Of a stretch of 33,035 bases of DNA, positions 16,523 through 33,035 are shown piece by piece. The stretch lies in the NCBI GenBank assembly GCA_002720375.1, contig PBIE01000030.1:1-33035 (forward strand), read 5' to 3'. The position numbers were made by a program, and so were the translations under genes. Within the stretch, counting starts at the first letter, position 1, and each line of letters begins with the position of its first letter. This DNA comes from Crocinitomicaceae bacterium. Lineage in GTDB: Bacteria > Bacteroidota > Bacteroidia > Flavobacteriales_D > Sanyastnellaceae. The notes under the pieces are model-generated. The model had not been told where the DNA came from and did no database searches. It saw nothing but the letters and a program-made list of their open reading frames with translations.

Positions 16523-19500
16523 ATGTTTCACTATCTTCTACGGGCTCAAACTGCCCTCCTTTGCATGCTCACCGTTGGTTGGGCTGTTCATGCACAATGT
16601 GACGACCCAATCACATTTGATGCTGACCTAACCAACACTTCAGTTCAATGCCTTAGTGATTTGCCCACCTCGTGTGACGAGACCGTCGGGGCGAATCGAG
16701 GCGACGTCGCTTGCATATTGGGCGAGCAGCGCCTCTCCGCAAACACCTGTGAGGCTTCCATGGCCTTGGGCACAGGAGAAGACGGTGCAATCGTGCTGTT
16801 TGACATTGACGGCGATCCCAACGACGATCGATATTTTATTCCCACAGCCGAAGGACTAACACTGGTGCAATTCGAAAACGGAGTTGCGCAAGTATCTGGA
16901 CAGGTCGCTGACGTTAACAATCCCGATGCCATTCTCAATGTGGAAATCGTATATGACCAAGGGACGTCTGGTGCGGATTGGTCAGGAGGCTATAAGTATG
17001 ACATGAGTTGTGTGCCGACCACGGACATAACAGATACTTGGAGCATCTACATTTTGAATGCTGAGCTCAGTTATCTGATCGGGGAGGGGGATTTGGATGG
17101 TACCCTTTTGGAGGTCAACCACGCTCCATCGAGTGAGTACTTTGGTTTTCAGGTTGGTGAAATGGCCAATGACCGCAACTGCAATTATGGTGCGGGTGGT
17201 TGGTTCAGCTATCATGGAACCTTGAATGGTGTCGAAATCCAAGGTGGCCAGGGCGATGTCCTGCTCGATTTGGAATGCACTGATGATCTGGTGAACCCTT
17301 GCGAGGAAAACGAAGCCAGTGTTACCCTTATATACACCGCCATCGACACTGAATGCGGAGATGCAATCACTGAGGAGCAGGTAATCAGCCGTAGCGATAC
17401 GGAATTGCCCACGTTTGACAATGCACCCGCTGACGAGCAGGTGGCCTGTGCAGATGGCTTACCTGATGTGCCGACGGTGACCGCATCTGACAACTGCGAA
17501 GACAGTGATGCAGAGGGTCCCACGGTGACCTACGATGGTCAAACGCCCGCTTATGATCAGATTTGCACTGGTTCCTACAAAGTGGACCGCACGTGGATTG
17601 CCGAAGATTGCTCGGGCAATCAAGCCACACATACCCAGACCATCACGGTGGTTGATGAGGTTGCTCCCGTGATATCCGGAGGAACAAATGCGCTTGTCGA
17701 ATGCGATGGTGCAGGCAACACTGATGAATTGGCCGCTTGGTTGGCTGTTCAAGGAGGAGCGACCGCTGTGGACGATTGCGGCACAGTGAGCTGGAGCCAC
17801 GATTATGAGGACGGTGACATGAGCAACCTCTGCGGCGAGACAGGCGCCGTAGACGTCATTTTCACATCGTCGGACGATTGTAACAACCAGAGCAGCATCA
17901 CCTTGACCTTCACCATTCAAGACACAGGTGCGCCCACATTGACCGCTGCCCCCATTGCTGATGTGCCCTGCGAGACCTACAGCGCAGAGGGCATTTATGA
18001 AGCTTCGGCCAGTGACGTCTGTGGCGATGCCACTGTCGTGCTGGTGTCTGTGAATGAAGTCAGCAGCAGCTGCGCAGGCCAATTCTTGCATGTGTATAAG
18101 GCCGTGGATGACTGTGGAAACGAGAGCGAGACCTACGATCAGGTGGTGACCCTGATTGATGAGACCGCACCCGTGGTGACCATTTCTTGCCCGGCAAATG
18201 CAGCACTTGTTGCGGACGGTTCTTGCAATGCGGATACCACTCCTGATGCGCTTGGAATTGCCACCTTCACTGCTAGCGACAATTGCGACGAAAACCTCGA
18301 CAATACCTTGGGGCACTCCGATGCAATTGAGACGCTTTGTGAAGGCAGCTACATCATAACGAGGACTTGGACCATCGAGTCTACAGATCATTGCGGCCAG
18401 TCATCTCAGGCTTCATGCGACCAGACCATTACGGTGACCGACGAAACGGCCCCAACGGTGGATGTCTCGGCAGCGAATTTGACCGTCGAATGTGATGGAG
18501 CAGGCAACGCGGAAGAACTTGCCGCTTGGCTCGCCAGCAATGGAGGTGCCCAGGCCAGTGACAACTGCAGTGCGGTGACTTGGAGTCACAGTGATGCTGA
18601 ACTGAGCGACCTCTGCGGAGCAACAGGTGCAGCCACTGTGACCTTTACCGCCACAGATGACTGTGGCAACGCGTCCGAAACGACGGCCACCTTTACCATT
18701 GAGGACACCACCAATCCAACCATTGAGACGGCGGCCACAAGTGAGACCGTTGAATGCGATGGCGCAGGCAATGAAGAAGAACTGAATGCTTGGCTTGCGA
18801 GCCACGGTGGAGCGGCGGCCAGCGACATCTGTGGTGGCGTGACGTTCTCTAACAACTTCGCGGGCCTGAGCGACGGTTGCGGTGCCACAGGCAGTGCGAC
18901 TGTGACCTTCACCGCCACGGATGATTGCGGCAATGCCAGCAGCACGACGGCGACGTTTACCATTGAAGACACTACAGCTCCGATTTGGAACCCATATGAC
19001 ACATACATGACTGCAGCGTGTGAGGATTTACTCGATCCAGAAGATCCCACGCTCGTTCCCCTCAGCGCTGAGGACATTTGCGGTGGGGTGAGTTACTCGA
19101 TTGAAGCATACCAGTTGTCTGGCGGTTGCCCTGGCACTTGGATGCGCATTTGGACCGCCACGGACGAATGCGGAAACGCCTCAGTAGAGACTGAGCAATA
19201 TGTCCAGCTTTTCGACATCATTGCCCCAGTTCCAGTCATCACTTGTCCAGCCGACTTCACGGTGAGTGCTGATGAGAATTGCCAGGCCGACACATCTCCG
19301 GCAGCGGCAGGGGAGGCCACGGCGACAGCAACAGACAACTGCGACAGCGATGTGGACATCATTATCTCGCATACCGACGGTGAGCCCACAAGCTTGTGTG
19401 ATGGACAATACAGCTTCATCCGGACTTGGACAGCAGACGCTGTAGACGACTGTGATAACCCTGCGAGCACCAGTTGTGAGCAGCTCATCACTGTTGAAGA

Positions 19501-22500
19501 CACCACGGCGCCCATCATTGGTGTTGCCGCTGCCAACCTAACGGTGGAATGCGATGGTGCTGGAAACTCAGCTGACTTGGAGGCTTGGTTGGCCGATAAT
19601 GGAGGGGCAGAAGCCACAGACAACTGCAGTGCCATCACCTGGAGCCACAGCGATGCCACACTCAGTGACCTGTGCGCCGCCACAGGAGCTGTGAATGTGA
19701 CCTTCACTGCTACCGATGATTGCGGTAACGCCAGTCAGACGACAGCGACATTTACCATTCAAGACACCACAGCACCGGCTTTCTCTGGCGATGTGGAGGT
19801 CAGCATTTCTTGCGATGAGTGGGCGTGCGATGCGGATGCGCTTGAGGCGCTCGGCATCTTCTCCATCGAAGAAGCTTGCGGCACATACACGCTCGAGGCA
19901 TCCTGTGTCTCATTCAGCGGCGGTTGCGTGACACCTGTTGGCGCCTATCAGGCCAACTACACGGCCACCGACGAATGCGGCAACACCAGCGCATTCAGTC
20001 AAATCGTCATCTTGAGTGATGACGTGAAGCCCGTTCCGAGCATCACTTGTCCCGCTGAGGCCAATTTGACGGCAGATGCAGACTGCGATGCAGACCTAAA
20101 TCCTTCCAACACTGGAATGGCCATCGGAAGCGCCACGGACAATTGTGATGCTGCCCCTGAGGTTGTGGTGACCCACATTGACGGTCCCATCTTGGAAGGA
20201 TGCGCAGGCAGCTACTCCTTCACGCGCACCTTTACTGCAACAGCGACGGATCACTGTGGTAACACGGACAGCATCAGTTGTGATCAGCTTATTACGGTGA
20301 GCGACGAGACTGCTCCTAGCGCACCTGTCATCGATGGACCTGCAGATGCAGAGGTGTTGCTCGATGCCGATTGTGCGACCGATGCGAGCCCGTCTGTGAC
20401 GGGAGAGGCCGCGGCTACTGCAACGGACAACTGTGACGCGTCACCATCTATTGCCATCACATACGAAGACAGCGCCCCGACATACGCCTGTGTGGGAGAC
20501 GATACGGCAGAAGGCAGCTACACCTTCCTTCGGACTTGGACCGCCACTGCCACAGACGATTGTGGAAACGTGGGGACTGCCAGTACGCATGTTCAAACCA
20601 TCACGGTAAGCGACGAGATTGCACCTGACTTCGCGGGAAGTGCAAACACCTTCGAAATTGCTTGTGACCTGTATGATGAGGCCGTACCATACGATGTGAT
20701 GGCAGTTGACAATTGCGACAGCGACGTCAGCATTGTTATCCTGAGCAACTCCGAGGTCAGTGGCAGTTGTGCTGGAGCCTTACTCCGCACTTATGAAGCC
20801 ACGGATGACTGCGGCAACAGTGTACAGTTTGAGCAGGCCATCAGCCTTATCGATACTGTGGCGCCACTCATCACCTTGACTTGTCCAGCAGACGCGACGC
20901 TCGAAGCGGACGCTGCTTGCGGTGCAGATACATCGATTACTGCCCTTGGAAATGCCGATATCACGGCCGTAGACAATTGCGACGCCGACCTTGACGTCAG
21001 CCTGACCCATCAAGATGTGCTCACCGAGGGTTGTGAAGGCAGCTATACGATTGCCCGCACCTTTACCCTGACGGCGACTGACCATTGTGACAACACATCC
21101 ACGTTGAGCTGCACACAAAACATCGCAGTGATTGACTTTACGCCCCCAAGCATTGACATGGAAGCGTCCGATGTGACTGTGGAGTGCGATGGCAATTTGA
21201 ACGAGGCGGAGTTTTTGCTTTGGCTCGGAACCAATGGCGGAGCTAGTGCTTCTGACAATTGCAGTGATATTGTATGGTCCAATGACTTCGTCATCACCGA
21301 AGAAGGTGAAATCATCGGCGCTGTTCAGGGATGCAGTCTGTTCACCGGCAGCCTTCTTGTAACCTTCACGGCAACTGACGGCTGCGGAAACAACAGCAGC
21401 ACATCGGCCACATTCACCATTGAAGACACCACGGCACCTGAGATAACGGCTGCCCTTGAGGTGGACGTGCCTTGCGATGAGTACGACGCCGACATGCCAT
21501 ACAGCTATGAGGCATCGGACTCCTGTAGCAATGTGACTACCGCCATCGATGACCTCTTTTTCAGCGGGGCATGCGAGGGGACATACCAGCGAACCTATAC
21601 GGCCACGGACGATTGTGGCAACAGTTCTCAGTTTATCCAAATCATCAACTTGACGGATGAGGTTCCCCCGTTATTTACCCTGAGTTGTCCTGCAGACACA
21701 ACGCTCAGTGCGGATGCTGAATGCGGTGCCGATACCAGTATTGAAACCCACGGTCTGGCGACATTCGCCGATGTCATTGACAACTGTGATGCTGACGTTC
21801 AAATGACGGTAACGCATGCAGATTCGACAGTTTCCCCATGTGACGGAAGCAGGGTGATCACACGGACCTTTACCATCACGGCCGAGGACAACTGTGGCAA
21901 CACCCTGACGCAGACCTGTGACCAGACCATCACAGTCAACGACGATACCGCACCGAACATTGTGGCTCCAGCGGATGTGACGGTGGAGTGTGACGGTGCT
22001 GGAAACGAGGCCGATTTGGCAGCGTTCCTTGCAGGGGCCACGGCCAGCGACAACTGCAGCAATGTCACGATTGAGCACGATTTCGACACACTCAGCGATG
22101 GCTGTGGAGCCACCGGCACTGCAACTGTGATGTTCACGGCCACAGATGCTTGCGGCAACAGCAGCAATGCTTCAGCGACCTTCACCATCGAAGACACCAC
22201 TGCTCCGAGTATCGACACAGCGGCCTCGAGTCTGACTGTGGAATGCGACGGCATGGGCAATGTGATGGAATACTTAGCGTGGCAGAGTACCCTAGGCGGT
22301 GCGGCGGCCAGTGACGCCTGCAGTGGTGTGTCTTGGAGCCATGAGGTACTCGAGACAGGAGACGACTGCGGCGGTGCAGTGGGACACTCCACCTTGGAGT
22401 TCACGGCGACCGATGCTTGCGGCAACAGCAGCAGCACCACCGCGACCTTTACGATTGTCGATACCACGGCTCCCGAGGTTTCCGCAGCCAACGAGGTGGA

Positions 22501-24742
22501 AGTCCCTTGTGACGCTTACGATTCCGACACGCCATATGGAGACTATGCAGCGACTGATGGATGCAGTGGGGTGACCACCTCCATCGAGGACTTGTTCTTC
22601 AGTGGTCCTTGCGAGGGCTCGTATCAGCGCACCTACACGGCCACAGATTCTTGCGGCAACAGTGCGGAGTTCATCCAGATCATCAATTTGACCGATGAGG
22701 TGGCCCCCACCTTCACAATCAGCTGCCCAGCAGACACCACGCTCAGTGCGGATGCGGCCTGCGAGGCAGACATCAGTGCGGAGGCCCACGGCGTGGCAGA
22801 ATTTGCCGACGTGGCGGACAATTGTGACAATGACGTCGAGATGACGGTGACGCATGAGGATGCAACGGCTTCTCCTTGTGACGGCAGCACGGTCATCACG
22901 CGGACCTTCACCATTACAGCCGAGGACAACTGTGGCAATGTCACCACGCTGACCTGCGATCAGACGATAACGGTCAACGACGACACTGCTCCGATCATTA
23001 CAGCACCAGCCGACTTGACGGTGGAGTGCGACGGGTTGGGCAATGAGGCTGACCTTGTGGCATTCCTTGCAGGTGCCAGCGCCACTGACAACTGCAGTGC
23101 AGTGACCATCGAGCATGACTTCTCCGCTTTGAGCGACAGTTGTGGTGCCACGGGCAGCGCGACAGTGAGCTTCACAGCAACGGATGCTTGCGGCAACACC
23201 AGCAGTGCTTCTGCCACGTTTACCATCGAAGACACGACGCCCCCAAGCCTCACCATCGAGGGTCCAGCCAATCAGGATTTGATCCAGAATGGCACTTGTG
23301 ACCTCGATACGGGTGTGGACGCTCTTGGTAACGTGTCATTTGAGACCGGTGACGCCTGCGGCAGTGCTACCGTAGAGATTACCCACTCCGATGGAGATGC
23401 CCTGTTCACGTGCGACGGAGACGACGATATGCTGGAGGGAAGCTACACGTTCATCCGGACCTTTACAGTGACGGCCACGGACGAGTGCGGGCTACAAACG
23501 ACCGAATCGTACGACCAAACCATTACGGTCACGGACGACAGTGCGCCGAGTTTCACCAGCACAGGCGATGTTGAGAATGGAGAGGTCCAATCGGTGTGCT
23601 GCGAAAGCCATCTCGGGGACTTGACCATCCCAGAGGCTGTTCAGCCTTCGTACGAGGACAATTGTGACTCGGATGTGGCATATGCAATGAGCGAGACCCT
23701 CGTGGGAGCTTATGCACCTACAGACGCTGTTGACTTGTTCTGCTTGAGTACAACGCCTGCGGCTTTTGAGGACGGTGAGACATGCAATGGCTATGATCCA
23801 CACAGCCTGCGCATTTTCGCCTTGCCGGGCGGTGCTGAATTCTACTTGGCTTCGGGTCCAGGTCTCGTGGCCAACAACGCAGATGGTACGCTGACACTGA
23901 CGCAATCCACTATGGCTGCTGACGGATCCAGTGCCGGTTGGGATATCTCAGTGACCTACGGGGCTGCCTTGTCTTGGGACGATTGGAACAGTCAAGCTTT
24001 CCCAACTGGATATAAGCGCGATTGTGGAGACTTGATTGACGACCATGAGAACTGGGCGTACCGAATTCTTGAGTCTGGGTCCCTCACGGGAACAGGAGAC
24101 TATGCAGGATCGGACCTCAGCTTGTCACATGCACCGAGCAACAACTACTACGCTTGCCAGTTCGGCCTCGGCGCCAACAACATGAACAATGAATACGGTT
24201 ACAGCGGATGGTTCACCTATAGTGGCTCATTCTTGGACAGTGACATCATGGGCTCCGGCGACTTATTCGGTGACCTCGACTGTTGCTTGCCTTGGAGTAT
24301 TGAGCGGGACTATAGCATCGCTGACGACTGTGGCAATGCCAATGGGTTCGCATACAGCATTGAGGTCAACGGAGAGGAGTGTGACGATGCAGACGGGGCG
24401 CTTGTGAGCGGCGGTCAGAACGGAGATCACACACCTGGCATCCTCGATGGCTTAGGTGAGGTGACGATGGGTAAGACTCCGATTCGCGTCACCAACCTTC
24501 AGCCTAACCCGACAAACGACATCAGCCAACTTGGATTCGTCGTGGACCACAACATGCGCATCCGCGTGGACCTGGTGGGCATGGACGGTGTCTTGGTGGC
24601 GGAGTTGTACGATGGCATCGCCCAAACCGGGGTGAACCACACCCTCGATGTGGACGCCGGCACCCTGAATAACGGAATGTACCAGATTCGCCTGAGCAGC
24701 AGTGCATACCTGGTCGTAAAGAAATTGCTCGTGAGTGAGTGA
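16523..24742 (+). CDS. Giant secreted HYR/Ig-like repeat protein with T9SS sorting tail (first paralog)
   Basis: 2739 residues. A signal peptide is cleaved after about Ala24 (VHA|Q). An N-terminal module (about 80-253, DGAIVLFDIDGDPNDDRYF to GDVLLDLEC) and one distinct repeat precede 22 HYR-like units (17672-23554), each with DNC..., C...GS and ATDxCGN cysteine motifs and ending ITVxDxTAP. A C-terminal module (about 2412-2588) resembles the N-terminal one: HAPSNNYYACQFGLGANN against HAPSSEYFGFQVGEMAND. Residues 2657-2739 are a T9SS type A tail, from TNLQPNPTND to YLVVKKLLVSE. The protein is acidic, Thr/Asp-rich and cysteine-rich, so disulfide-linked surface fibres are likely. No catalytic motif is seen. 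Adhesion or matrix binding is inferred from architecture only. A terminator follows at 24784. Confidence 0.93.
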   Translation: MFHYLLRAQTALLCMLTVGWAVHAQCDDPITFDADLTNTSVQCLSDLPTSCDETVGANRGDVACILGEQRLSANTCEASMALGTGEDGAIVLFDIDGDPNDDRYFIPTAEGLTLVQFENGVAQVSGQVADVNNPDAILNVEIVYDQGTSGADWSGGYKYDMSCVPTTDITDTWSIYILNAELSYLIGEGDLDGTLLEVNHAPSSEYFGFQVGEMANDRNCNYGAGGWFSYHGTLNGVEIQGGQGDVLLDLECTDDLVNPCEENEASVTLIYTAIDTECGDAITEEQVISRSDTELPTFDNAPADEQVACADGLPDVPTVTASDNCEDSDAEGPTVTYDGQTPAYDQICTGSYKVDRTWIAEDCSGNQATHTQTITVVDEVAPVISGGTNALVECDGAGNTDELAAWLAVQGGATAVDDCGTVSWSHDYEDGDMSNLCGETGAVDVIFTSSDDCNNQSSITLTFTIQDTGAPTLTAAPIADVPCETYSAEGIYEASASDVCGDATVVLVSVNEVSSSCAGQFLHVYKAVDDCGNESETYDQVVTLIDETAPVVTISCPANAALVADGSCNADTTPDALGIATFTASDNCDENLDNTLGHSDAIETLCEGSYIITRTWTIESTDHCGQSSQASCDQTITVTDETAPTVDVSAANLTVECDGAGNAEELAAWLASNGGAQASDNCSAVTWSHSDAELSDLCGATGAATVTFTATDDCGNASETTATFTIEDTTNPTIETAATSETVECDGAGNEEELNAWLASHGGAAASDICGGVTFSNNFAGLSDGCGATGSATVTFTATDDCGNASSTTATFTIEDTTAPIWNPYDTYMTAACEDLLDPEDPTLVPLSAEDICGGVSYSIEAYQLSGGCPGTWMRIWTATDECGNASVETEQYVQLFDIIAPVPVITCPADFTVSADENCQADTSPAAAGEATATATDNCDSDVDIIISHTDGEPTSLCDGQYSFIRTWTADAVDDCDNPASTSCEQLITVEDTTAPIIGVAAANLTVECDGAGNSADLEAWLADNGGAEATDNCSAITWSHSDATLSDLCAATGAVNVTFTATDDCGNASQTTATFTIQDTTAPAFSGDVEVSISCDEWACDADALEALGIFSIEEACGTYTLEASCVSFSGGCVTPVGAYQANYTATDECGNTSAFSQIVILSDDVKPVPSITCPAEANLTADADCDADLNPSNTGMAIGSATDNCDAAPEVVVTHIDGPILEGCAGSYSFTRTFTATATDHCGNTDSISCDQLITVSDETAPSAPVIDGPADAEVLLDADCATDASPSVTGEAAATATDNCDASPSIAITYEDSAPTYACVGDDTAEGSYTFLRTWTATATDDCGNVGTASTHVQTITVSDEIAPDFAGSANTFEIACDLYDEAVPYDVMAVDNCDSDVSIVILSNSEVSGSCAGALLRTYEATDDCGNSVQFEQAISLIDTVAPLITLTCPADATLEADAACGADTSITALGNADITAVDNCDADLDVSLTHQDVLTEGCEGSYTIARTFTLTATDHCDNTSTLSCTQNIAVIDFTPPSIDMEASDVTVECDGNLNEAEFLLWLGTNGGASASDNCSDIVWSNDFVITEEGEIIGAVQGCSLFTGSLLVTFTATDGCGNNSSTSATFTIEDTTAPEITAALEVDVPCDEYDADMPYSYEASDSCSNVTTAIDDLFFSGACEGTYQRTYTATDDCGNSSQFIQIINLTDEVPPLFTLSCPADTTLSADAECGADTSIETHGLATFADVIDNCDADVQMTVTHADSTVSPCDGSRVITRTFTITAEDNCGNTLTQTCDQTITVNDDTAPNIVAPADVTVECDGAGNEADLAAFLAGATASDNCSNVTIEHDFDTLSDGCGATGTATVMFTATDACGNSSNASATFTIEDTTAPSIDTAASSLTVECDGMGNVMEYLAWQSTLGGAAASDACSGVSWSHEVLETGDDCGGAVGHSTLEFTATDACGNSSSTTATFTIVDTTAPEVSAANEVEVPCDAYDSDTPYGDYAATDGCSGVTTSIEDLFFSGPCEGSYQRTYTATDSCGNSAEFIQIINLTDEVAPTFTISCPADTTLSADAACEADISAEAHGVAEFADVADNCDNDVEMTVTHEDATASPCDGSTVITRTFTITAEDNCGNVTTLTCDQTITVNDDTAPIITAPADLTVECDGLGNEADLVAFLAGASATDNCSAVTIEHDFSALSDSCGATGSATVSFTATDACGNTSSASATFTIEDTTPPSLTIEGPANQDLIQNGTCDLDTGVDALGNVSFETGDACGSATVEITHSDGDALFTCDGDDDMLEGSYTFIRTFTVTATDECGLQTTESYDQTITVTDDSAPSFTSTGDVENGEVQSVCCESHLGDLTIPEAVQPSYEDNCDSDVAYAMSETLVGAYAPTDAVDLFCLSTTPAAFEDGETCNGYDPHSLRIFALPGGAEFYLASGPGLVANNADGTLTLTQSTMAADGSSAGWDISVTYGAALSWDDWNSQAFPTGYKRDCGDLIDDHENWAYRILESGSLTGTGDYAGSDLSLSHAPSNNYYACQFGLGANNMNNEYGYSGWFTYSGSFLDSDIMGSGDLFGDLDCCLPWSIERDYSIADDCGNANGFAYSIEVNGEECDDADGALVSGGQNGDHTPGILDGLGEVTMGKTPIRVTNLQPNPTNDISQLGFVVDHNMRIRVDLVGMDGVLVAELYDGIAQTGVNHTLDVDAGTLNNGMYQIRLSSSAYLVVKKLLVSE
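17672..23554 (+). repeat. Array of 22 HYR-like coding repeats, three unit types (first giant gene)
   Basis: By eye the order is A C B A A C B A C B B C B A C B A A C B A B, averaging about 89 codons. Type A begins with VECDGxGNxxELxAWLAxxGG. Type B begins with CPADxTLxADAxC. Type C begins with VxCDEY and has SGxCxGxYxRTYTATD. All six C units are followed by B. Boundaries are set at the TAP motif between units. Confidence 0.85.
21446..23247 (+). repeat. Tandem duplication of a C-B-A block (about 765 bases each) flanking one A unit
   Basis: The block 21446-22209 (C5-B6-A6) closely resembles 22481-23247 (C6-B7-A8). Both share FIQIINLTDEV, CPADTTLSADA, CDQTITVNDDTAP and a shortened A unit with AFLAG in place of AWLAxxGG. 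A single ordinary A unit (A7) separates them. The second paralog has only one equivalent of the pair. Confidence 0.8.
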
Positions 24743-24783
24743 TTAAGGAGAGGTCCTGGAGAGGGCCGCAAAACCAAGCCAAT

Positions 24784-24809
24784 AAAAGCCACCCTTCGGG
24801 GTGGCTTTT
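24784..24809 (+). terminator. Rho-independent terminator of the first giant gene
   Basis: AAAAGCCACCC-TTCG-GGGTGGCTTTT is an 11-bp perfect stem with a UUCG tetraloop and a T-run, 41 bases after the stop. The A- and T-runs make it able to act on both strands. Confidence 0.93.
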
Positions 24810-24839
24810 TGTGTTGTCTTTTGTGAGTTGGGCTTCACC

Positions 24840-25118
24840 ATTTTGACAGGCACGTCACCGATGCGTGCAACGAACCATCAATTTAACCCCACCAACGACC
24901 TTAGCTTGCTTGGCTTCACGGTGACGGGGAACATGCGCCTCTGCGTGGACATGTGCACAATGGACGGGATTTTGGTCTCGAGCTTTGAGACAGTGTTGCT
25001 TCTTCGAACGTTAATCACACGCTTGGTATAGAAGCAAACGCCCTTGAACTCGGCATACTAGATTCACCTCTTCAGCAGCCAGTATCTGGTGGTTAAGAAG
25101 CTCTTGGTGACAGAGTAA
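24840..25118 (+). pseudogene. Frameshifted 3' relic of a third giant repeat gene (T9SS tail only)
   Basis: The DNA from about 24840 aligns with the 3' end of the second giant gene (32883 onward). FNPTNDLSLLGFTVTGNMRL and then CTMDGILVS are readable in one frame. After a disruption near 24985, HTLGIEANALELGIL is read, and after a further frame change QYLVVKKLLVTE ending in TAA (25116-25118). No start codon, signal peptide or repeats remain. The sequence is closer to the second gene's tail (PTNDLSLLGFTV) than to the first gene's (PTNDISQLGFVV). It lies between two terminators, so it looks like the stump of a deleted copy. Confidence 0.87.
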
Positions 25119-25140
25119 TCTCCATCACCTTCTGATTAAG

Positions 25141-25171
25141 GAAAAGGCTGCTCTGCCGGGCGGCCGTTTTT
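25141..25171 (+). terminator. Probable terminator of the relic gene
   Basis: GAAAA then stem GGCTGC (25146-25151) pairs with GCGGCC (25160-25165) with one G-T wobble, followed by GTTTTT. The position, 23 bases after the relic's stop, fits a terminator left from the lost gene. Confidence 0.6.
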
Positions 25172-25449
25172 GATTTTTCAAAGCCTTGCTCAATGCCGAA
25201 TGAAGGCGTTTGCCTCGCTTATCCAATGAAGTCAATTTTGTTACGAGTGGAGTATAAAAAGGCCCATAAATGTGTTTTTCGAATTGTTCGATTATGTGAT
25301 TTGAGACATAAAGCGGACGAATTACACTGAATAGATACAGCATTATTTGGGCGCACATAATAGCTTATACTATTTGTGTCGTGCATATATGGGAATTGGA
25401 TAAGAAATCCATGATATGAAGCCAATTTAGGCTCACCAAAACGTACGCC
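25172..25449. other. AT-rich intergenic region upstream of the second giant gene
   Basis: 278 bases without a supportable gene. It holds the ACTGAATAGATACA motif at 25326-25339, shared with the region before the first giant gene. A near-consensus CAATTTTG lies at 25233-25240, but 210 bases from the start codon, so it is a weak promoter candidate. Short minus-strand frames here have no recognisable similarity. Confidence 0.5.
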
Positions 25450-28400
25450 ATGCTTAAACAGCTACTCCAAGCCTCAGCGGCTTTCTTTTTTATTCTGGTG
25501 CTCACTGCAGCAGCAAACACTTTGTTCGGCCAGTGCGATGAGCCAATGGAATTTTTGCCAGCTCTTTCCAATGAAACGGTTCAGTGCTTGGACGATCTTC
25601 CAACTGAATGTGATGGCGAGCAGGGAGCAAGTCGCGGTGTTGTGTCCTGCGGCATGGCTGAGGACATTCAGAGCCGCATAGTGTGCACGGCTACCACTGC
25701 AATGGGCACGGGTGAAGACGGTGCTATCGTGTTGTTTGACGTTGATGGTGATCCGGACGATGATCGTTATTTCATGCCCACCACGGATGGTTTGTCGCTA
25801 ACTCAATTTGAAAACGGTGTGGCTGTGGTCTCAGGTCAGGTTGCCGATATCAACGACCCAACGGCCATCCTGAACGTCAGTATTTTCTATGACAACGGAA
25901 CCAGTGGAGCAGACTGGGACGGCGGTTACAAGTACGATATGTCATGTGCCCCAACTCCGGAAATGACGGATGCTTGGACCATTTATACCATGAACAGTGG
26001 ATTGAGCTTTCTGGTAGGAGCGGGCAGTATGGAGGGCACCACCCTTCAATTGTCGCACGCGCCAGCCAGCGAATACTTCGGCTTCCAAGTAGGAGAAATG
26101 GCCAACGATCGCAACTGCAACTACGGTGCAGGTGGATGGTTTAGCTATGATGGTGCTATCAATGGCGTGGAAATTCAAGGCGGTACGGGAGACGTCCTTC
26201 TTGACCTTGAGTGCAATGAGGAACAAAACAACGAATGTGGTGAAGACGAGTCTTCAGTGACGTTTTTCTATGCTGCTTATGACGCCGATTGCTTCGACGT
26301 CATCACTGGCACGGAAACCTTCACGCGCCACGATACAGAGGCTCCCGCATTTGACAATGCGCCCGCTGACATTTCAGTGGCTTGCGAGGACATGGATATT
26401 GAGGTTCCTGAGGTCACAGCAAGTGACAACTGTGAAGACAGTGATGCGACAGGACCTACGGTAACCTACAATGGCCAGTCTCCACAGTACGATATTACAT
26501 GCACGGGCTCGTACAAGGTAGACCGCACATGGACTGCTGAGGACTGCTCAGGCAACCAAGTGGGTCACACACAGACTATTACGGTCTATGACAATACACC
26601 TCCAGTTATTTCTGTCGGAGCTCAGTCATACACAGCGGAGTGTGATGGCAATTTGAACCAAGAAGAGTTCTTCGCTTGGTTGATCAATAATGGTGGTGCG
26701 ATGGCCTCTGACAACTGCGGTGATGTTGTTTGGTCCAATGATTTTGTTGTGACGGATGAAGGTGAAATCATTGGTGCCGTTCAGGGTTGCAGCGCCTTCA
26801 CAGGTAGCATTCTTGTGACTTTCACGGCCACAGATGATTGCGGTAACGCATCTGAGACCTCCGCCACCTTTACGATTGAAGACACCACGGCCCCTAATCT
26901 TACGGTCACACCGACTCACGACATCGCTTGTGAGGAGTATTCATCTGAGGGTATCTACGGTGCTTCATCGAGCGACGTATGCGGTGAATCCGAGGTGGTT
27001 CTGGTCTCCGTGAGCGAAGTGAGCAGCAACTGCGCCGGAGTATACCTCCACACTTATATGGCCGTGGACGAGTGCGAGAATGAGAGCGAGACGTATGAAC
27101 AGGTGGTGACCCTCATCGACACGGACGCCCCAGCGGTGACCATCTGGTATTGTCCGGTTGACGCCAATCGATCCACCGACGAGAATTGCGAGGCCGACAC
27201 CACCCCGGAGGCCAATGGCATTGCCCTCGCTTCGGCCGAGGACAACTGCGACGACAATCCAGAGGTGATCGTCGAATACAGTGACGTAGTGACTCCTGGG
27301 TGCACCGGCAGTTACACCATCGAACGCACCTGGACGGCCACAGCTACCGACCACTGTGATAACGCGGCCAGCACGAGCTGCACGCAGATCATCACGGTGA
27401 CCGACGACACCGATCCGGTTCCTAGCATCAGCTGCCCTGCTGCTTACACGGTGGATGCCGATGAGCTCTGTGAGGCTGACACCACGCCTGCTGCTGCTGG
27501 TTCTGCGACGGCTACTGCCACGGACAACTGCAGCCCTGCAGATAACATCAGTCTTGACATCACTTACGAGGACAGTGAGGCGATTTTTGAGTGCGACGGC
27601 GAGTACAGCTTTGTTCGCACGTGGACGGTTGTTGCCACGGACGATTGCGGCAATGATGCGAGCACGAGTTGCACACAGACCATCACGGTTGAGGACAACA
27701 CGGCACCGACATGGGATGCCTATGATACTTATGCATACGCTGCTTGTGAGGACCTCTTGGATCCCACTGACCCGACCTTGGTTCCCATCAGTGCCAGCGA
27801 TAACTGCAGCGAAGTGAGTTACAGCATTGAGGCTTTCCAGCTTTCCGGGGGTTGCCCTGGCACGTGGATGCGCGTTTGGACTGCCACGGACGATTGCGGC
27901 AACGTTTCTGCAGAGACTGAGCAATACGTTCAGTTATATGACAACATCAAGCCAGTTCCTGTGATTGTTTGTCCTGAGGACTACACAATTGATGCTGATG
28001 GTGCCTGTGAAGCTGACATCACACCTGCTGCTGCTGGTGAGGCCACGGCCACAGCCACGGACAACTGCGCTGCAGAGGAGGACATCACCATTGCGATCAC
28101 CTATGAGGACGGTCCAATCACTGATGTTTGCACCGGCGCTTACTACTTCACGCGTACTTGGACTGCAACGGCCACTGACGAGTGTGACAATGTGGATTCC
28201 ATTTCCTGTGACCAGCTGATTACGGTCGAGGACAACACGGCTCCGGTCATCACAGGTGGAGCCGACGAGACGGTTGAGTGCGACGGATTGGGCAACCTCG
28301 ATGAGTTGAATGCATGGTTGGTCAACAACGGCGGCGCCACGGCCACCGACAACTGCAGCGACATCACTTGGAGCTACGGCATGGAGCTTTCATCCAACGT

Positions 28401-31400
28401 CATGGCGTGGCACCCCCACCACATTGCTAACGGATATGATCACAACTTTCTCGGTGTCCCTGCATCTTGGGCTGCCTATTTGCCAGCCGACGGCATGTTC
28501 ACCGTGACCCTGACCCACAACGGTGCCACGGAGGAATTCCAGATTAGTGGTTGGACGGGCGCTAATGATGGTGTGATTTACCTGTATGCGGTGGCCAATC
28601 CCGAGTTGGATTACCAGTTCGACATCTTCGGTGATGCATTCGGTGAACCGGTGACCATTGATGACACCGTCTCGATTTCGATTGATGAAGTTGAGCTCAG
28701 CGATGACTGTGGCGCGACCGGTTCTGTTGACGTAGTCTTCACGGCCACCGACGACTGTGGAAATAGCAGCAGCACATCCGAGTTCACCTTTGAGATTGAG
28801 GACACGACTGCACCTGTGATTTCGGGCAACATGGAGGAGAGCGTTTCTTGCGATGATTGGACTTGCGATGCAGACGCCTTGGAGGCCATGGGTCTATTCA
28901 GCGTTGCTGAGGACTGCGGCGATTATCACTTGAACATCACGTGCAGCGCATTCAGTGGAGCTTGTGTGACTCCAGTCCCAGGCTATTCCATCACGGTGAC
29001 TGCGACGGATGAGTGCGACAATGTGAGTGAAGTGTTCATGCAGATGATTGATTTGTACGACGACGTCAATCCTGTTGCCAGCATCACTTGTCCTGCAGAC
29101 TTCGTCACCACTGCTGATGAAGATTGCAATGCAGATACGACACCTGAAGCTGCGGGAATTGCAGAAGCGAGCGCCACGGATAATTGCGACGCTTCACCTG
29201 AAGTGACCATCAGTCATGAGGATGGCGAGTCGAACTACACTTGCTCAGGCAGCTATAGCTTCACGCGTACTTGGACTGCAACTGCTGAAGACCACTGTGG
29301 AAATGTGCACAGCGTTAGCTGCGACCAGTTGATTACGGTCAACGACGAGACGGCTCCGGACGCTCCGGTGATTGACTCACCTGAGGATGCCATAGTCTTT
29401 TTGGATGAAAATTGCACCGTGGACTCGAGTCCGGCTGTCACCGGAGTGGCTACAGCAACTGCGGAAGACAATTGTGACAGCAATCCCGCAGTCACTGTGG
29501 AGCACACGGATGGTGTTTTCGAATATTTCTGTGAAATTGACCCGGGGTTGGACTACTCGAATGAGGAGACGTCCCTGAACCTTCTCGTAACCAGTGGTGG
29601 TATGGTTTCCTTCAATTGGAGCTACCATACTGATGACGTTGATCCTTCGTACGATCCTGCGTATTACATCAATGAGGCCCAGTATTTATTGACGGATGAT
29701 GATGGACCAAACGATCAGTCAGGGTCCATTAGTTTCGAGGTGTCGGAGGGCGATATGATTGGTTTCGGAATCAACGCAACAGATATGTGCTGTGGTGGGG
29801 CCATTTTGACAGTTAGTGGGTTCCAGGCTCCTGGAGGAGAAGATTTCACAGGGGACTACGCCCCCGAGAACTGGAATTCATTCGATGGAGCCAATGGGAG
29901 CATTGAGTTTTCGGATGATGCAAGCACACTTGTAGTCACAGGTTCAGATGATTCAGGTGAAGGGTCATACGGATTCGAGCGGGTCTGGATGGCATATGCC
30001 GAAGACGATTGTGGCAATCAGAGTGACACTTCGTACGCATATCAGTGGATTGAAGTGTTGGATACAATTGCCCCTTCTTTTGATGGCTCTTCTGAAGTCG
30101 TGAATGTCCCTTGTGACGAGTATAATGACGACCACATGTATTCTGTTGTGGCGAGTGACAATTGTGACAGCGACGTTAGCATTGCCATTCTGAGTAACAG
30201 TCAAGTGAGCGGCGCCTGTGCAGGTACTATCCTGCGCACATACCTGGCGATGGATGATTGTGGCAATGAAACAGAATGGCAGCAGTTCATCAACCTGACC
30301 GACGATGTAGACCCAGTGGTGACCATCACTTGTCCTGAGAACACAGATTTGACATCGGATGCCGCTTGTAACGCAGATACGACCCCTGATGCCAACGGCA
30401 CTGCCAGTTGGACTGCTACAGACAACTGTGATACGGATTTGGACACAGATTTGAGCTACAGTGATGCAATTGAATATGGTTGCGAAGGCAGCTATACAAT
30501 CACGCGTACTTGGACGATTACTGCTACCGACCATTGTAACAACGTGGGCAGCACGAGCTGCAATCAGACTATTACCGTGACAGACGATACAGACCCGACC
30601 ATCAGTGCGGAGGCAATGGACTACACGGCTGAATGTGATGGCAACTTGAACCAAGAAGAGTTCTTCACGTGGTTGACTGCCAACGGTGGAGCGACGGCTT
30701 CGGACAACTGTAGTGATGTTGTTTGGTCCAACGACTTTGTTGTGACGGATGACGGTGAAATCATTGGTGCTGTTCAGGGTTGCAGTGCATTCACAGGCAG
30801 CATTCTTGTGACGTTCACGGCCACAGATGCTTGCGGCAACTTCAGCGAGACGTCTGCGACGTTCACGATTGAGGATACGACCAGTCCGGCTGCTTCTGCG
30901 GATGCGGTGACGGAGGTTGCCTGTGACGAGTACGATCCAGCTGTTGCTTATGGCAACTTCACTGCTGTTGATGCGTGCAGTGAGGTCACGGTAGAGATTG
31001 CCGACTTGGCTGTCAGTGGTGCTTGTGCGGGCAGCTACTCTCGTACCTACACCATCACCGATGAGTGCGGTAACGATACGTTGGTTTACCAGATTATCAA
31101 CTTGACTGACGACGTTGCCCCGAGCTTCGACATCACATGTCCTGACAATGTGGACTTGGTTGCCGACGCTGACTGCAATGCAGATACGAGCGTTGAGACA
31201 CACGGGTCTGCGACCTTCAGCAATGTGATGGACAACTGTGACGATGAAGTTGATATGGAGGTGAGCTCCAGCGATGAAATTGCATACGGTTGCCAGGGCA
31301 GCTACACGATTAGCCGCACGTGGACCATCACGGGTACGGACCACTGTGACAACACAACGGAGAAGACGTGCGTCCAAACCATTACGGTGAGCGACGAGAC

Positions 31401-33035
31401 GGCTCCGACGATCAGCGGCGGTGCCAATGCCCTTGTTGAGTGCGACGGTTCTGGCAACACAGATGATCTGAATGCTTGGCTCGCTAACAATGGCGGTGCT
31501 ACGGCGACGGACAACTGCAGCGCAGTGAGCTGGAGCCACAGCGATGCTTCGTTGAGCAACGGTTGTGGTGCCACGGGCACGGTTGACGTGGTCTTCACGG
31601 CCACCGACGAGTGCAACAACAGTGCTACGATCACGTTGACGTTCACGATCCAAGACACGACCCCACCAAGTCTGTCTATCGAGGGACCTGCGAACCAGAA
31701 CCTTGACCAGAACGCCACGTGCGATGTTGACACGAGTGTTGATGCCTTGGGCAACGTGATTGCTTCTGCTGGCGATGCTTGCGGGTCTGCGAGCATTGCG
31801 ATCACGCACGAAGACGGCATGGCCACCTACACCTGCACCGGCGACGATGAGGCGTTGGAGGGCAGCTACACGTTTGTGCGGACCTTCACGGTGACGGCCA
31901 CGGACGAGTGCGGCTTGACCACGACTAACACCTACGACCAGACGATCACGGTGACCGACGGCACGGCCCCTCAGTTCACTGAGACATGTGATCTTGCCAA
32001 CGGCGACATTGTGGAAGTTTGCTGTGAGGACTTGAGCGGCACAGTGACGATTCCGGACGCTTGCGAAACGGAGGCTGCCGACAACTGTGACAGCGATGTT
32101 GCCATTGCCTACACCGAGACGTACATGGGCGATTACGCACCGACCGATGCGGTGATGAGTTTCTGTTTGAGCACAACTCCAGCTGCATATGCCGACGGAG
32201 AGGCTTGCAATGGCTTGGATCCTCACGCGTTCAGCTTGTTCAACTTCGACGGCCAGCCACGTGTTGACTTTGTGAGTGTCGGCTCCGGCTTGGTGTCGCA
32301 GATGAACGACGGCACGTGGATGCTGGAGCAGGAGTTGACCAATGACGCTGGCACAGGCCTGCTCACCTTGACGGTGACCTACGGTGCTGCCTCAAGCTGG
32401 GACGATTGGTTCGTGGCCGGCCAGACCAACTACAAGCGCGACTGCGGTGTATTGGTTGACGACCACGAGAACTGGGATTACCGCATTCTGGAGTCAGGAA
32501 GTGTTACGGGATCTGGCGACTACGATGGTCTTAACCTTTCCTTGTCTCATGCACCTGCCAACGAGTACTACGCATTCCAGATTGGATTGGGCGCCAACAA
32601 CCAGAACGACAACTACGGCTACAGTGGTTGGATTATGGCCACGGGCACCTACGGGGATGATGCGGTGTTCTTCAGCGGCGACTTGTTCGGTGACCTCGAC
32701 TGCTGCTTGCCATGGAGCATTGACCGTGAGTACACGGCCAGTGACGACTGCGGCAACGCGACTGAGTTCGAGTACTCCATCTCGGTGAACGGTGACAATT
32801 GCGGTGACGACGACGGTGTCTTGGTGTCTGGAGGTCAGGACGAGGACCACACGCCGGGCATCATCGGTGGTGCTGGCGATGTGCTGACAGGAAAGTCACC
32901 TATTCGCGTGACGAACCTTCAGCCTAACCCCACCAACGACCTGAGCTTGCTTGGCTTCACGGTTACGCAGAACATGCGTCTCCGCGTGGACATGTACACG
33001 ATGGACGGCATCTTGGTCTCCGAGTTGTATGACGG
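25450..33035 (+). CDS. Giant secreted HYR/Ig-like repeat protein with T9SS tail (second paralog), 3' end outside window
   Basis: Open from ATG 25450 to the window end, about 2528 codons. The frame was checked at many points and no stop was met. A signal peptide (MLKQLLQASAAFFFILVLTA, then AANTLFGQ) leads to the N-terminal module (about 86-258: GEDGAIVLFDVDGDPDDDRY to GDVLLDLEC), 17 HYR-like units (26608-31977), a C-terminal module (about 2244-2419) and the start of the T9SS tail (TNLQPNPTNDLSLLGF). By comparison with the first paralog about 41 residues are missing. Two units carry inserts: about 105 residues in an A unit (28378-28692) and about 140 in a B unit (29533-29950, with FNWSYHTDDVDPSYDPAYY). 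It is a paralog of the preceding giant gene; surface adhesion is inferred only. Confidence 0.92.
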   Translation, partial: MLKQLLQASAAFFFILVLTAAANTLFGQCDEPMEFLPALSNETVQCLDDLPTECDGEQGASRGVVSCGMAEDIQSRIVCTATTAMGTGEDGAIVLFDVDGDPDDDRYFMPTTDGLSLTQFENGVAVVSGQVADINDPTAILNVSIFYDNGTSGADWDGGYKYDMSCAPTPEMTDAWTIYTMNSGLSFLVGAGSMEGTTLQLSHAPASEYFGFQVGEMANDRNCNYGAGGWFSYDGAINGVEIQGGTGDVLLDLECNEEQNNECGEDESSVTFFYAAYDADCFDVITGTETFTRHDTEAPAFDNAPADISVACEDMDIEVPEVTASDNCEDSDATGPTVTYNGQSPQYDITCTGSYKVDRTWTAEDCSGNQVGHTQTITVYDNTPPVISVGAQSYTAECDGNLNQEEFFAWLINNGGAMASDNCGDVVWSNDFVVTDEGEIIGAVQGCSAFTGSILVTFTATDDCGNASETSATFTIEDTTAPNLTVTPTHDIACEEYSSEGIYGASSSDVCGESEVVLVSVSEVSSNCAGVYLHTYMAVDECENESETYEQVVTLIDTDAPAVTIWYCPVDANRSTDENCEADTTPEANGIALASAEDNCDDNPEVIVEYSDVVTPGCTGSYTIERTWTATATDHCDNAASTSCTQIITVTDDTDPVPSISCPAAYTVDADELCEADTTPAAAGSATATATDNCSPADNISLDITYEDSEAIFECDGEYSFVRTWTVVATDDCGNDASTSCTQTITVEDNTAPTWDAYDTYAYAACEDLLDPTDPTLVPISASDNCSEVSYSIEAFQLSGGCPGTWMRVWTATDDCGNVSAETEQYVQLYDNIKPVPVIVCPEDYTIDADGACEADITPAAAGEATATATDNCAAEEDITIAITYEDGPITDVCTGAYYFTRTWTATATDECDNVDSISCDQLITVEDNTAPVITGGADETVECDGLGNLDELNAWLVNNGGATATDNCSDITWSYGMELSSNVMAWHPHHIANGYDHNFLGVPASWAAYLPADGMFTVTLTHNGATEEFQISGWTGANDGVIYLYAVANPELDYQFDIFGDAFGEPVTIDDTVSISIDEVELSDDCGATGSVDVVFTATDDCGNSSSTSEFTFEIEDTTAPVISGNMEESVSCDDWTCDADALEAMGLFSVAEDCGDYHLNITCSAFSGACVTPVPGYSITVTATDECDNVSEVFMQMIDLYDDVNPVASITCPADFVTTADEDCNADTTPEAAGIAEASATDNCDASPEVTISHEDGESNYTCSGSYSFTRTWTATAEDHCGNVHSVSCDQLITVNDETAPDAPVIDSPEDAIVFLDENCTVDSSPAVTGVATATAEDNCDSNPAVTVEHTDGVFEYFCEIDPGLDYSNEETSLNLLVTSGGMVSFNWSYHTDDVDPSYDPAYYINEAQYLLTDDDGPNDQSGSISFEVSEGDMIGFGINATDMCCGGAILTVSGFQAPGGEDFTGDYAPENWNSFDGANGSIEFSDDASTLVVTGSDDSGEGSYGFERVWMAYAEDDCGNQSDTSYAYQWIEVLDTIAPSFDGSSEVVNVPCDEYNDDHMYSVVASDNCDSDVSIAILSNSQVSGACAGTILRTYLAMDDCGNETEWQQFINLTDDVDPVVTITCPENTDLTSDAACNADTTPDANGTASWTATDNCDTDLDTDLSYSDAIEYGCEGSYTITRTWTITATDHCNNVGSTSCNQTITVTDDTDPTISAEAMDYTAECDGNLNQEEFFTWLTANGGATASDNCSDVVWSNDFVVTDDGEIIGAVQGCSAFTGSILVTFTATDACGNFSETSATFTIEDTTSPAASADAVTEVACDEYDPAVAYGNFTAVDACSEVTVEIADLAVSGACAGSYSRTYTITDECGNDTLVYQIINLTDDVAPSFDITCPDNVDLVADADCNADTSVETHGSATFSNVMDNCDDEVDMEVSSSDEIAYGCQGSYTISRTWTITGTDHCDNTTEKTCVQTITVSDETAPTISGGANALVECDGSGNTDDLNAWLANNGGATATDNCSAVSWSHSDASLSNGCGATGTVDVVFTATDECNNSATITLTFTIQDTTPPSLSIEGPANQNLDQNATCDVDTSVDALGNVIASAGDACGSASIAITHEDGMATYTCTGDDEALEGSYTFVRTFTVTATDECGLTTTNTYDQTITVTDGTAPQFTETCDLANGDIVEVCCEDLSGTVTIPDACETEAADNCDSDVAIAYTETYMGDYAPTDAVMSFCLSTTPAAYADGEACNGLDPHAFSLFNFDGQPRVDFVSVGSGLVSQMNDGTWMLEQELTNDAGTGLLTLTVTYGAASSWDDWFVAGQTNYKRDCGVLVDDHENWDYRILESGSVTGSGDYDGLNLSLSHAPANEYYAFQIGLGANNQNDNYGYSGWIMATGTYGDDAVFFSGDLFGDLDCCLPWSIDREYTASDDCGNATEFEYSISVNGDNCGDDDGVLVSGGQDEDHTPGIIGGAGDVLTGKSPIRVTNLQPNPTNDLSLLGFTVTQNMRLRVDMYTMDGILVSELYD
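26608..31977 (+). repeat. Array of 17 HYR-like coding repeats, three unit types (second giant gene)
   Basis: The order is A C B B C B A C B B C B A C B A B. All five C units are followed by B, as in the first gene. C1 to C5 each correspond individually to C1 to C5 of the first gene, for example CEDLLDPTDPTLVPISASDN against CEDLLDPEDPTLVPLSAEDI. Two A units (the first and third) carry the long variant with GEIIGAVQGCSAFTGSILV. Confidence 0.83.

Follow-up and report, generated by a model that had tools for sequence, protein, structure and literature searches.

Fibrillar adhesins are very long multidomain surface proteins in which tandem stalk domains are combined with an adhesive domain, and a "domain grammar" has been sought in them (PMC8286594). 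SasG is an extended surface protein with alternating G5 and E repeats that lack covalent cross-links, the E domains being disordered on their own (PMC4458895). Consecutive genes for giant extracellular proteins, Giant1-5, are described from the lactic acid bacterium Apilactobacillus kunkeei; they have positional homologues and beta-solenoid N-terminal domains (PMC12863079). The A-band super-repeats of titin, made up of muscle Ig and FnIII domains, form ordered series of related domains whose conservation is tied to super-repeat position (PMC10665226). The two giant proteins described here, P1 and P2, resemble each of these in some respects. They share tandem stalk units with the fibrillar adhesins but have no recognised adhesive domain, and their grammar, unlike that of the adhesins, runs between subtypes of one domain family (PMC8286594). 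With SasG they have in common only the alternation of two unit kinds in an extended surface protein; their units are cysteine-rich, and one kind (C) occurs elsewhere in the family without the other (B) (PMC4458895). The consecutive giant genes are reminiscent of Giant1-5, whose published abstract makes no mention of HYR units (PMC12863079). Titin offers the parallel of an ordered series with positional conservation, although the domains differ and no homology is claimed (PMC10665226). Finally, P1 and P2 are like HYR_4C and LapB_rpt_80 proteins in their profile matches, but differ in that their A, B and C units are distinct subtypes with an order of their own. No paper on this HYR family or its unit syntax was found among the open-licence matches listed, which does not prove that there is none; the sole Flavobacteria match among them to name the HYR domain concerns ice-binding proteins (PMC9957290).

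The window, meaning the whole 33,035-nucleotide stretch that was analysed, is the entire contig C30 of a 1.56-Mb, 65% complete assembly of an uncultured, Flavobacteriales-like Crocinitomicaceae bacterium. P1 and P2 are adjacent plus-strand genes that fill its right half. (All coordinates are on this strand unless stated otherwise.) P1 is a complete giant HYR-repeat protein of 2739 aa (16523..24742), and its tandem paralogue P2 (25450..33033) has at least 2528 aa, its 3' end being missing at the contig end. When the 11 C-B dyads of the two proteins were used as queries against named genomes, the closest named relative among the best 80 of 343 relatives was the MAG PL36313bin_11, at 89% identity, and nine of the first ten rows of those 80 were Flavobacteriales assemblies. 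Elsewhere in the window, a rhodopsin gene (PF01036; 1561-2295, minus strand) adjoins a beta-carotene dioxygenase gene (PF15461; 595-1536, minus strand), the customary retinal-supply pair of light-using marine bacteria.

P1 matches HYR_4C (PF23237) at 114.3 bits, over the cut-off of 27 bits. P2 as a whole protein stays below it at 22.2 bits, and one stretch of P2 passes at 30.1 bits in the genome search. Scores for NCBIfam LapB_rpt_80 are 149.3 bits (P1) and 68.7 bits (P2). P1 also has an N-terminal non-repeat domain (aa 99-252; 16817..17278) with a second copy near its C-terminus (23825..24283); the two are 31% identical (E 2e-18) and match no Pfam family. A possible T9SS C-terminal sorting domain follows (24503..24733; Pfam 22.1 bits). 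No sorting-domain match in P1 reaches a curated cut-off (Pfam 19.3 and 22.1 of 27 bits; NCBIfam 15.6 of 23), so P1 can be called only a presumptive T9SS cargo; the end of P2 lies beyond the contig. No adhesive Pfam family matched P1, P2, or the end regions when these were searched apart. Both proteins are strongly polyanionic, with a net charge of -424 each and 0.3% lysine, and contain 128 (P1) and 110 (P2) cysteines. For the 11 neighbouring ORFs the corresponding values are 1.0-5.8% lysine and net charges of -23 to +6, and for seven related open frames 0.2-0.5% lysine and -299 to -556.

The repeat region was cut by hand at the linkers and then segmented in two rounds with profiles derived from the units of the window itself, profile D joining the first three in the second round. 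Hand cutting and profiles agree on the order D A C B A A C B A C B b C B A C B A A C B A b for P1 and D A C B B C B A C B b C B A C B A b for P2, where D is the canonical HYR unit and b is a B without its outer cysteine pair. Each protein is thus a tandem array, of 22 units in P1 and 17 in P2, behind one leading D (17399..17656 in P1; 26335..26592 in P2, 77% identical). Apart from these D units, which it did not include, the original prediction had given the same order for both giants. Four cysteines are found in both leading D units, in all 12 A units and in 9 of the 11 C units, the C at the third C position having six; B departs from the four-cysteine pattern of HYR_4C, with six cysteines in all but 3 of 16 units. 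All 11 C units have a B directly behind them; shuffling of types within the arrays leads one to expect 2.9 such steps, and none of 1000 shuffles reached 11. This rule, noticed at first in unit cuts made from the letters alone, holds under profile-based segmentation as well. The six dyads of P1 lie at 17924..18442 (02C-03B), 18971..19501 (06C-07B, the dyad modelled below), 19766..20305 (09C-10B), 20615..21136 (12C-13B), 21428..21943 (15C-16B) and 22463..22981 (19C-20B, an internal copy of the fifth). Those of P2 lie at 26884..27405 (02C-03B), 27697..28233 (05C-06B), 28804..29346 (08C-09B), 30064..30585 (11C-12B) and 30877..31395 (14C-15B).

A Needleman-Wunsch alignment at the level of units recovered the almost one-to-one register proposed for the two proteins, except that the additional block of P1 is shifted by one unit towards the end (p1_17A against p2_16A), and none of 2000 type-preserving shuffles of unit identity reached its score. 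When one type was shuffled alone, the score was reached in 0 of 2000 cases for B and in 12 of 2000 for C (about the chance of redrawing the identical order of five units, 1 in 120), but was equalled or bettered in 932 of 2000 for A. Positional identity is therefore carried by B and C and not by A. A tree of the 41 units bears this out for C: the first four C units pair across the proteins at 100/99, 100/99, 100/99 and 99/82 (ultrafast bootstrap/SH-aLRT). The claim that all five C units are individually recognisable thus stands firmly for four of them and less so for the fifth, where P1 15C pairs with 19C (98/91) after an internal duplication and p2_14C stands apart; in a tree of 107 C units these three fall into one clade of 6 rows (SH-aLRT 93). 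B is mostly locked to position too. Among the b units, 22b/17b and 11b/10b pair across proteins at 100/100 and 94/93, and in both 10B/09B and 07B/06B the two units are each other's closest by identity, though the 41-unit tree does not resolve them as pairs. One B is out of place: p1_03B is nearest to p2_12B, although the preceding p1_02C is nearest to p2_02C.

The unit orders of the two proteins differ at two places. P1 has two A units, A4-A5 (18443..18970), where P2 has the single 04B (27406..27696), which is nearest to p1_07B (62%) and p2_06B (60%). The extra units of P1, cut as A A C B in the original prediction, are better read as a copied block with the period C-B-A-A. C15-B16-A17 (21428..22195) and C19-B20-A21 (22463..23233) are 75%, 79% and 82% identical unit by unit (the flanking 14A/18A only 56%), and B16/B20 are sisters at 100/98, C15/C19 at 98/91. 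The A units follow no positional pattern: p1_01A groups with p2_16A and p2_01A with p2_13A, both at 99/92. P2 A1 (26593..26883) is 85% identical to P2 A13 (30586..30876), itself also a partner of P1 A14, and only 47% identical to P1 A1. Clustering within a protein instead of by position, which would speak against inheritance of a finished array, is thus seen for part of the A units and not for C, except in the internal copy 15C/19C.

How old is this arrangement? In a tree of the N-terminal regions, P1 groups with four orthologous loci (L061, L076, L071 and L091; 100/98) and P2 with two (L062 and L078; 83/96), which have N-terminal ends longer than that of P2. The latter two lie just downstream of the C-terminal end of the P1 orthologue in their genomes (G001 and G009, respectively), so the tandem arrangement is present in three genomes, the window's included. 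The arrays of P1, its orthologue L061 and the downstream gene L062 of G001 all start with D A C B A A C B A, and that of the orthologue L076 agrees wherever it is legible. (In L076 a run of N in the contig covers most of the A5 slot, which was excluded from the comparison; its short A5 was at one point considered a lost unit and rejected as such.) This supports the proposal that a finished gene was duplicated and its repeats not randomly shuffled, with the qualification that the event is old, as set out below, and that remodelling followed. The downstream gene in particular has been remodelled, since the readable arrays of L062 (D A C B A A C B A) and L078 (D A A A A), both cut, are unlike each other. 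The single B of P2 was considered as the ancestral state, since arrays starting D x C B B C B are common in other paralogue groups, and set aside because the downstream gene of G001 has A A. Judging from these arrays, A A is the likelier state at the time of duplication, the place of L062 as a P2 orthologue having moderate support (83/96).

The common view of long repeat proteins is that unequal crossing-over both lengthens them and keeps their repeats alike. In the orthologues L061 and L076 the unit at the same position in P1 was the best match for 9 of 9 C units and 10 of 10 B units, but for only 5 of 9 A units (one a tie to rounding). The mean positional identity of C to P1 is 86% in L061 and 90% in L076, whereas the closest other C within each protein reaches only 42% and 39%; for A, on the other hand, the best identity within the protein (76% and 81%) equals or exceeds the positional one (75% and 72%). 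The A variant that fills slot A14 in the window is not the one that both orthologues have there. This amounts to concerted evolution of A alongside positional inheritance of C and B within one and the same array.

Is the C-B rule general? Four profiles were used to segment 79 arrays (fetched relatives and the window), with 172 ambiguous steps of all types set aside; the thresholds, the D seeds and which arrays to drop as redundant were the analysts' choices, and some arrays are cut by contig ends. Among the 191 clear steps after C, the next unit is B in 112, b in 7, D in 68, A in 3 and C in 1. The rule that C is always followed by B thus holds for the two proteins and not for the family, where C-D is the main alternative; nor is there, at sequence level, an obligate dyad of the SasG kind. 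(A family-wide C-B rule had been entertained and was rejected once profile D was added, the earlier profiles having miscalled many D units as low-score C and so produced false runs of C.) In the clade of P1 and P2, which comprises 8 arrays by the author's assignment, all 26 steps after C lead to B. Over 45 non-redundant arrays, C-B was observed 59 times with 22.5 expected, C-C once with 17.3 expected, and A-B once with 13.6 expected. A second set of 69 ORFs from named records gave D after C in 48 of 54 steps, and B, b and C in 2 each. It partly overlaps the first set: 16 same-assembly loci were removed by hand, whereas L122 and L134, apparently the same as G022:C144 and G017:C88, were still counted, along with L133, L142 and L159, which share accession prefixes with them. 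Since D follows C so often in both sets, the C-B dyad is no folding necessity of C. The wider rule in these arrays is that C units occur singly, in many cases setting the beat of a longer repeat, with C-B as the version of this clade. Elsewhere, several loci of other genera (L056 from 2361 onward, L055, L057 and L054) have the regular period C D D D, a super-repeat with C as its beat. Eleven genomes preserve the 17-unit array D b C B B C B D C B D D C D D D D in one paralogue group (loci L041, L043, L045, L046, L048, L050, L064, L068, L073 with one unit ambiguous, L077 and L089).

The B that follows C is also of a particular kind. By a pattern on the unit ends, both outer cysteines are present in 75 of 76 B units after C when three profiles and strong units only are used, and in 112 of 119 B-type units with four profiles, the pair being absent in the remaining 7. 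After A, both are present in 1 of 8 cases with three profiles and in 1 of 7 with four; after B, in 53 of 97 with three profiles.

Insertions inside units are biased away from C and six-cysteine B. They were found inside A or b in 16 cases (145 confident units) and inside D in 13 (229 confident units, mostly near array ends), but in none of 209 confident C or six-cysteine B units. Collapsing the A/b insertions by hand to 10 events, several of the b cases being orthologues, changes Fisher's test from 0.000001 to 0.00017. The count of 16 omits the 13 D splits, one b-b gap and the b10 unit of P2 (29347..30063), which is split by a stretch of about 100 aa between two profile hits and whose halves failed the continuity test. 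P2 A7 (28234..28803) is split by 81 aa. (The inserted stretches of A7 and b10 are possibly small ligand-binding domains.) Two unassigned gaps lie directly after a C and before a b-type unit, of 152 aa in L042 (array at 2657, aa 490-641) and 229 aa in L106 (aa 846-1074); these are the only such gaps after a confident C in the two sets (1 of 195 and 1 of 105 steps), and they make insertions near C possible. An AlphaFold2 model of the P1 dyad 06C-07B had a mean pLDDT of 95.8 and a pTM of 0.78 with 37 sequences; an A-C-B-A model gave 84.8 and 0.54 with only 6 sequences and is not comparable with it. In Foldseek, tandem cadherin domains headed the PDB rows and the SraP adhesin came fifth, all at low TM-scores by query length (0.28-0.49 over the 50 listed rows), and a sequence search of solved structures returned weak matches only (best E 0.014). 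The likeness to a cadherin-like calcium rod is one of resemblance, coming from these low-scoring matches of a predicted structure and from the net charge of -424. Judging from the model, C-B may possibly be a structural super-unit.

Why, then, is C followed by B? The collinearity itself could stem from a recent whole-gene duplication or from continuing gene conversion between P1 and P2, which are tandem neighbours with N-terminal regions of about 390 residues that are 65% identical. This is very improbable, and was rejected on the evidence of four-fold degenerate sites: over the 17 collinear pairs, with 17 to 39 sites apiece, the difference at these sites is never below 0.52 and goes up to 0.94, much like the mean of all same-type pairs (0.66-0.70), so that the pairs are saturated and the duplication must be old, with no sign in them of recent conversion. 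P1 moreover groups with its orthologues, apart from P2. (For the internal copies the differences are 0.48-0.58 in the P1 block and 0.43 for P2 A1/A13.) Improbable too, if not to the same degree, is that C-B is a unit of recombination, a possibility raised in the original prediction, with arrays growing and exchanging by C-B modules. The joint sisterhood of C15-B16 and C19-B20 in P1 is what such a process would leave behind, but that block copy, the one clear case, takes in A and has the period C-B-A-A, and p1_03B and p1_02C have their nearest relatives at different positions. If dyads moved as modules, similar C units should be followed by similar B units; within six proteins the similarity of C did not predict that of the following B (rho -0.21 to 0.32, with 153 to 377 of 500 permutations as high), a comparison of low power with 4 to 6 dyads per protein. 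Recombination was accordingly dropped as the main reading.

The strongest rival is inheritance without present constraint, in which C-B is a frozen accident from one ancestral array fronted D x C B B C B, and tandem copying of A, B and blocks would leave C-B intact. Such a front is indeed found in several paralogue groups, and two further genera of the family (L059 and L060) have it as D D C B B C; one C subtype clade of the 107-unit C tree consists in 13 of its 19 rows (author's count) of second-place C units from several paralogue groups, so that common descent may account for much of the rule; and only 2 of 54 steps after C in the second set go to B. However, parsimony on the C and B trees counts 18 changes of B between after-C and not-after-C positions and 12 changes of the C follower between B and D, and despite these changes C-C and C-A stay at 1 and 3 of 191. 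(These trees are quick, weakly supported and built on few columns; 107 of 110 C units and 152 of 158 B/b units entered, some having been filtered by length and a few perhaps overwritten by name.) Nor were insertions seen inside C and six-cysteine B. We consider pure inheritance a possible explanation, but rather an unlikely one. The reading we favour, and think probable, is that P1 and P2 are secreted polyanionic rods of HYR domains in which C and the six-cysteine B form a fixed spine, with A, b and D as spacers or hosts of insertions.

Under this favoured reading, P1 and P2 would be tandem paralogues in a family of giant secreted surface rods made of disulphide-rich, HYR-type beta-sandwich units of four kinds: D as the canonical HYR_4C unit, A with four cysteines and a helix, C with four cysteines (six at the third position) and B with six. 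An array that was already long would have been duplicated long ago and both copies inherited vertically. Since then, each C and the six-cysteine B behind it would have been kept in place, every position with a sequence identity of its own, whereas the slots of A would have come and gone, been overwritten by copies of other A units and taken up inserted stretches. The reason is most probably mechanical: C and B would be the fixed stiff segments of a rod that presumably binds calcium, and successive C units would mark distinct positions along it, possibly sites of binding or packing, with A, b and D as spacers and carriers. Such a surface rod would presumably be secreted by the T9SS and have a part in adhesion. 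More tentatively, and with some doubt on our part, the proteins may be a bacterial analogue of the titin-like super-repeats, C and the six-cysteine B acting as position-locked addresses on a lysine-poor polyanionic rod and A, evolving in concert, as a replaceable spacer or docking site for inserted heads. If so, the length of the rod and its heads could change while the register is kept.

Two evolutionary modes coexist in one gene, with C holding its position across species and paralogues and A being recopied, and this provides a natural test of which domains of a rod carry position-specific function and which only set its length. The syntax, in which C is rarely doubled, a six-cysteine B follows C in this clade, and insertions within units fall in A, b and D, can guide the choice of segments for structural study, and could equally be used to annotate a large family of giant proteins.
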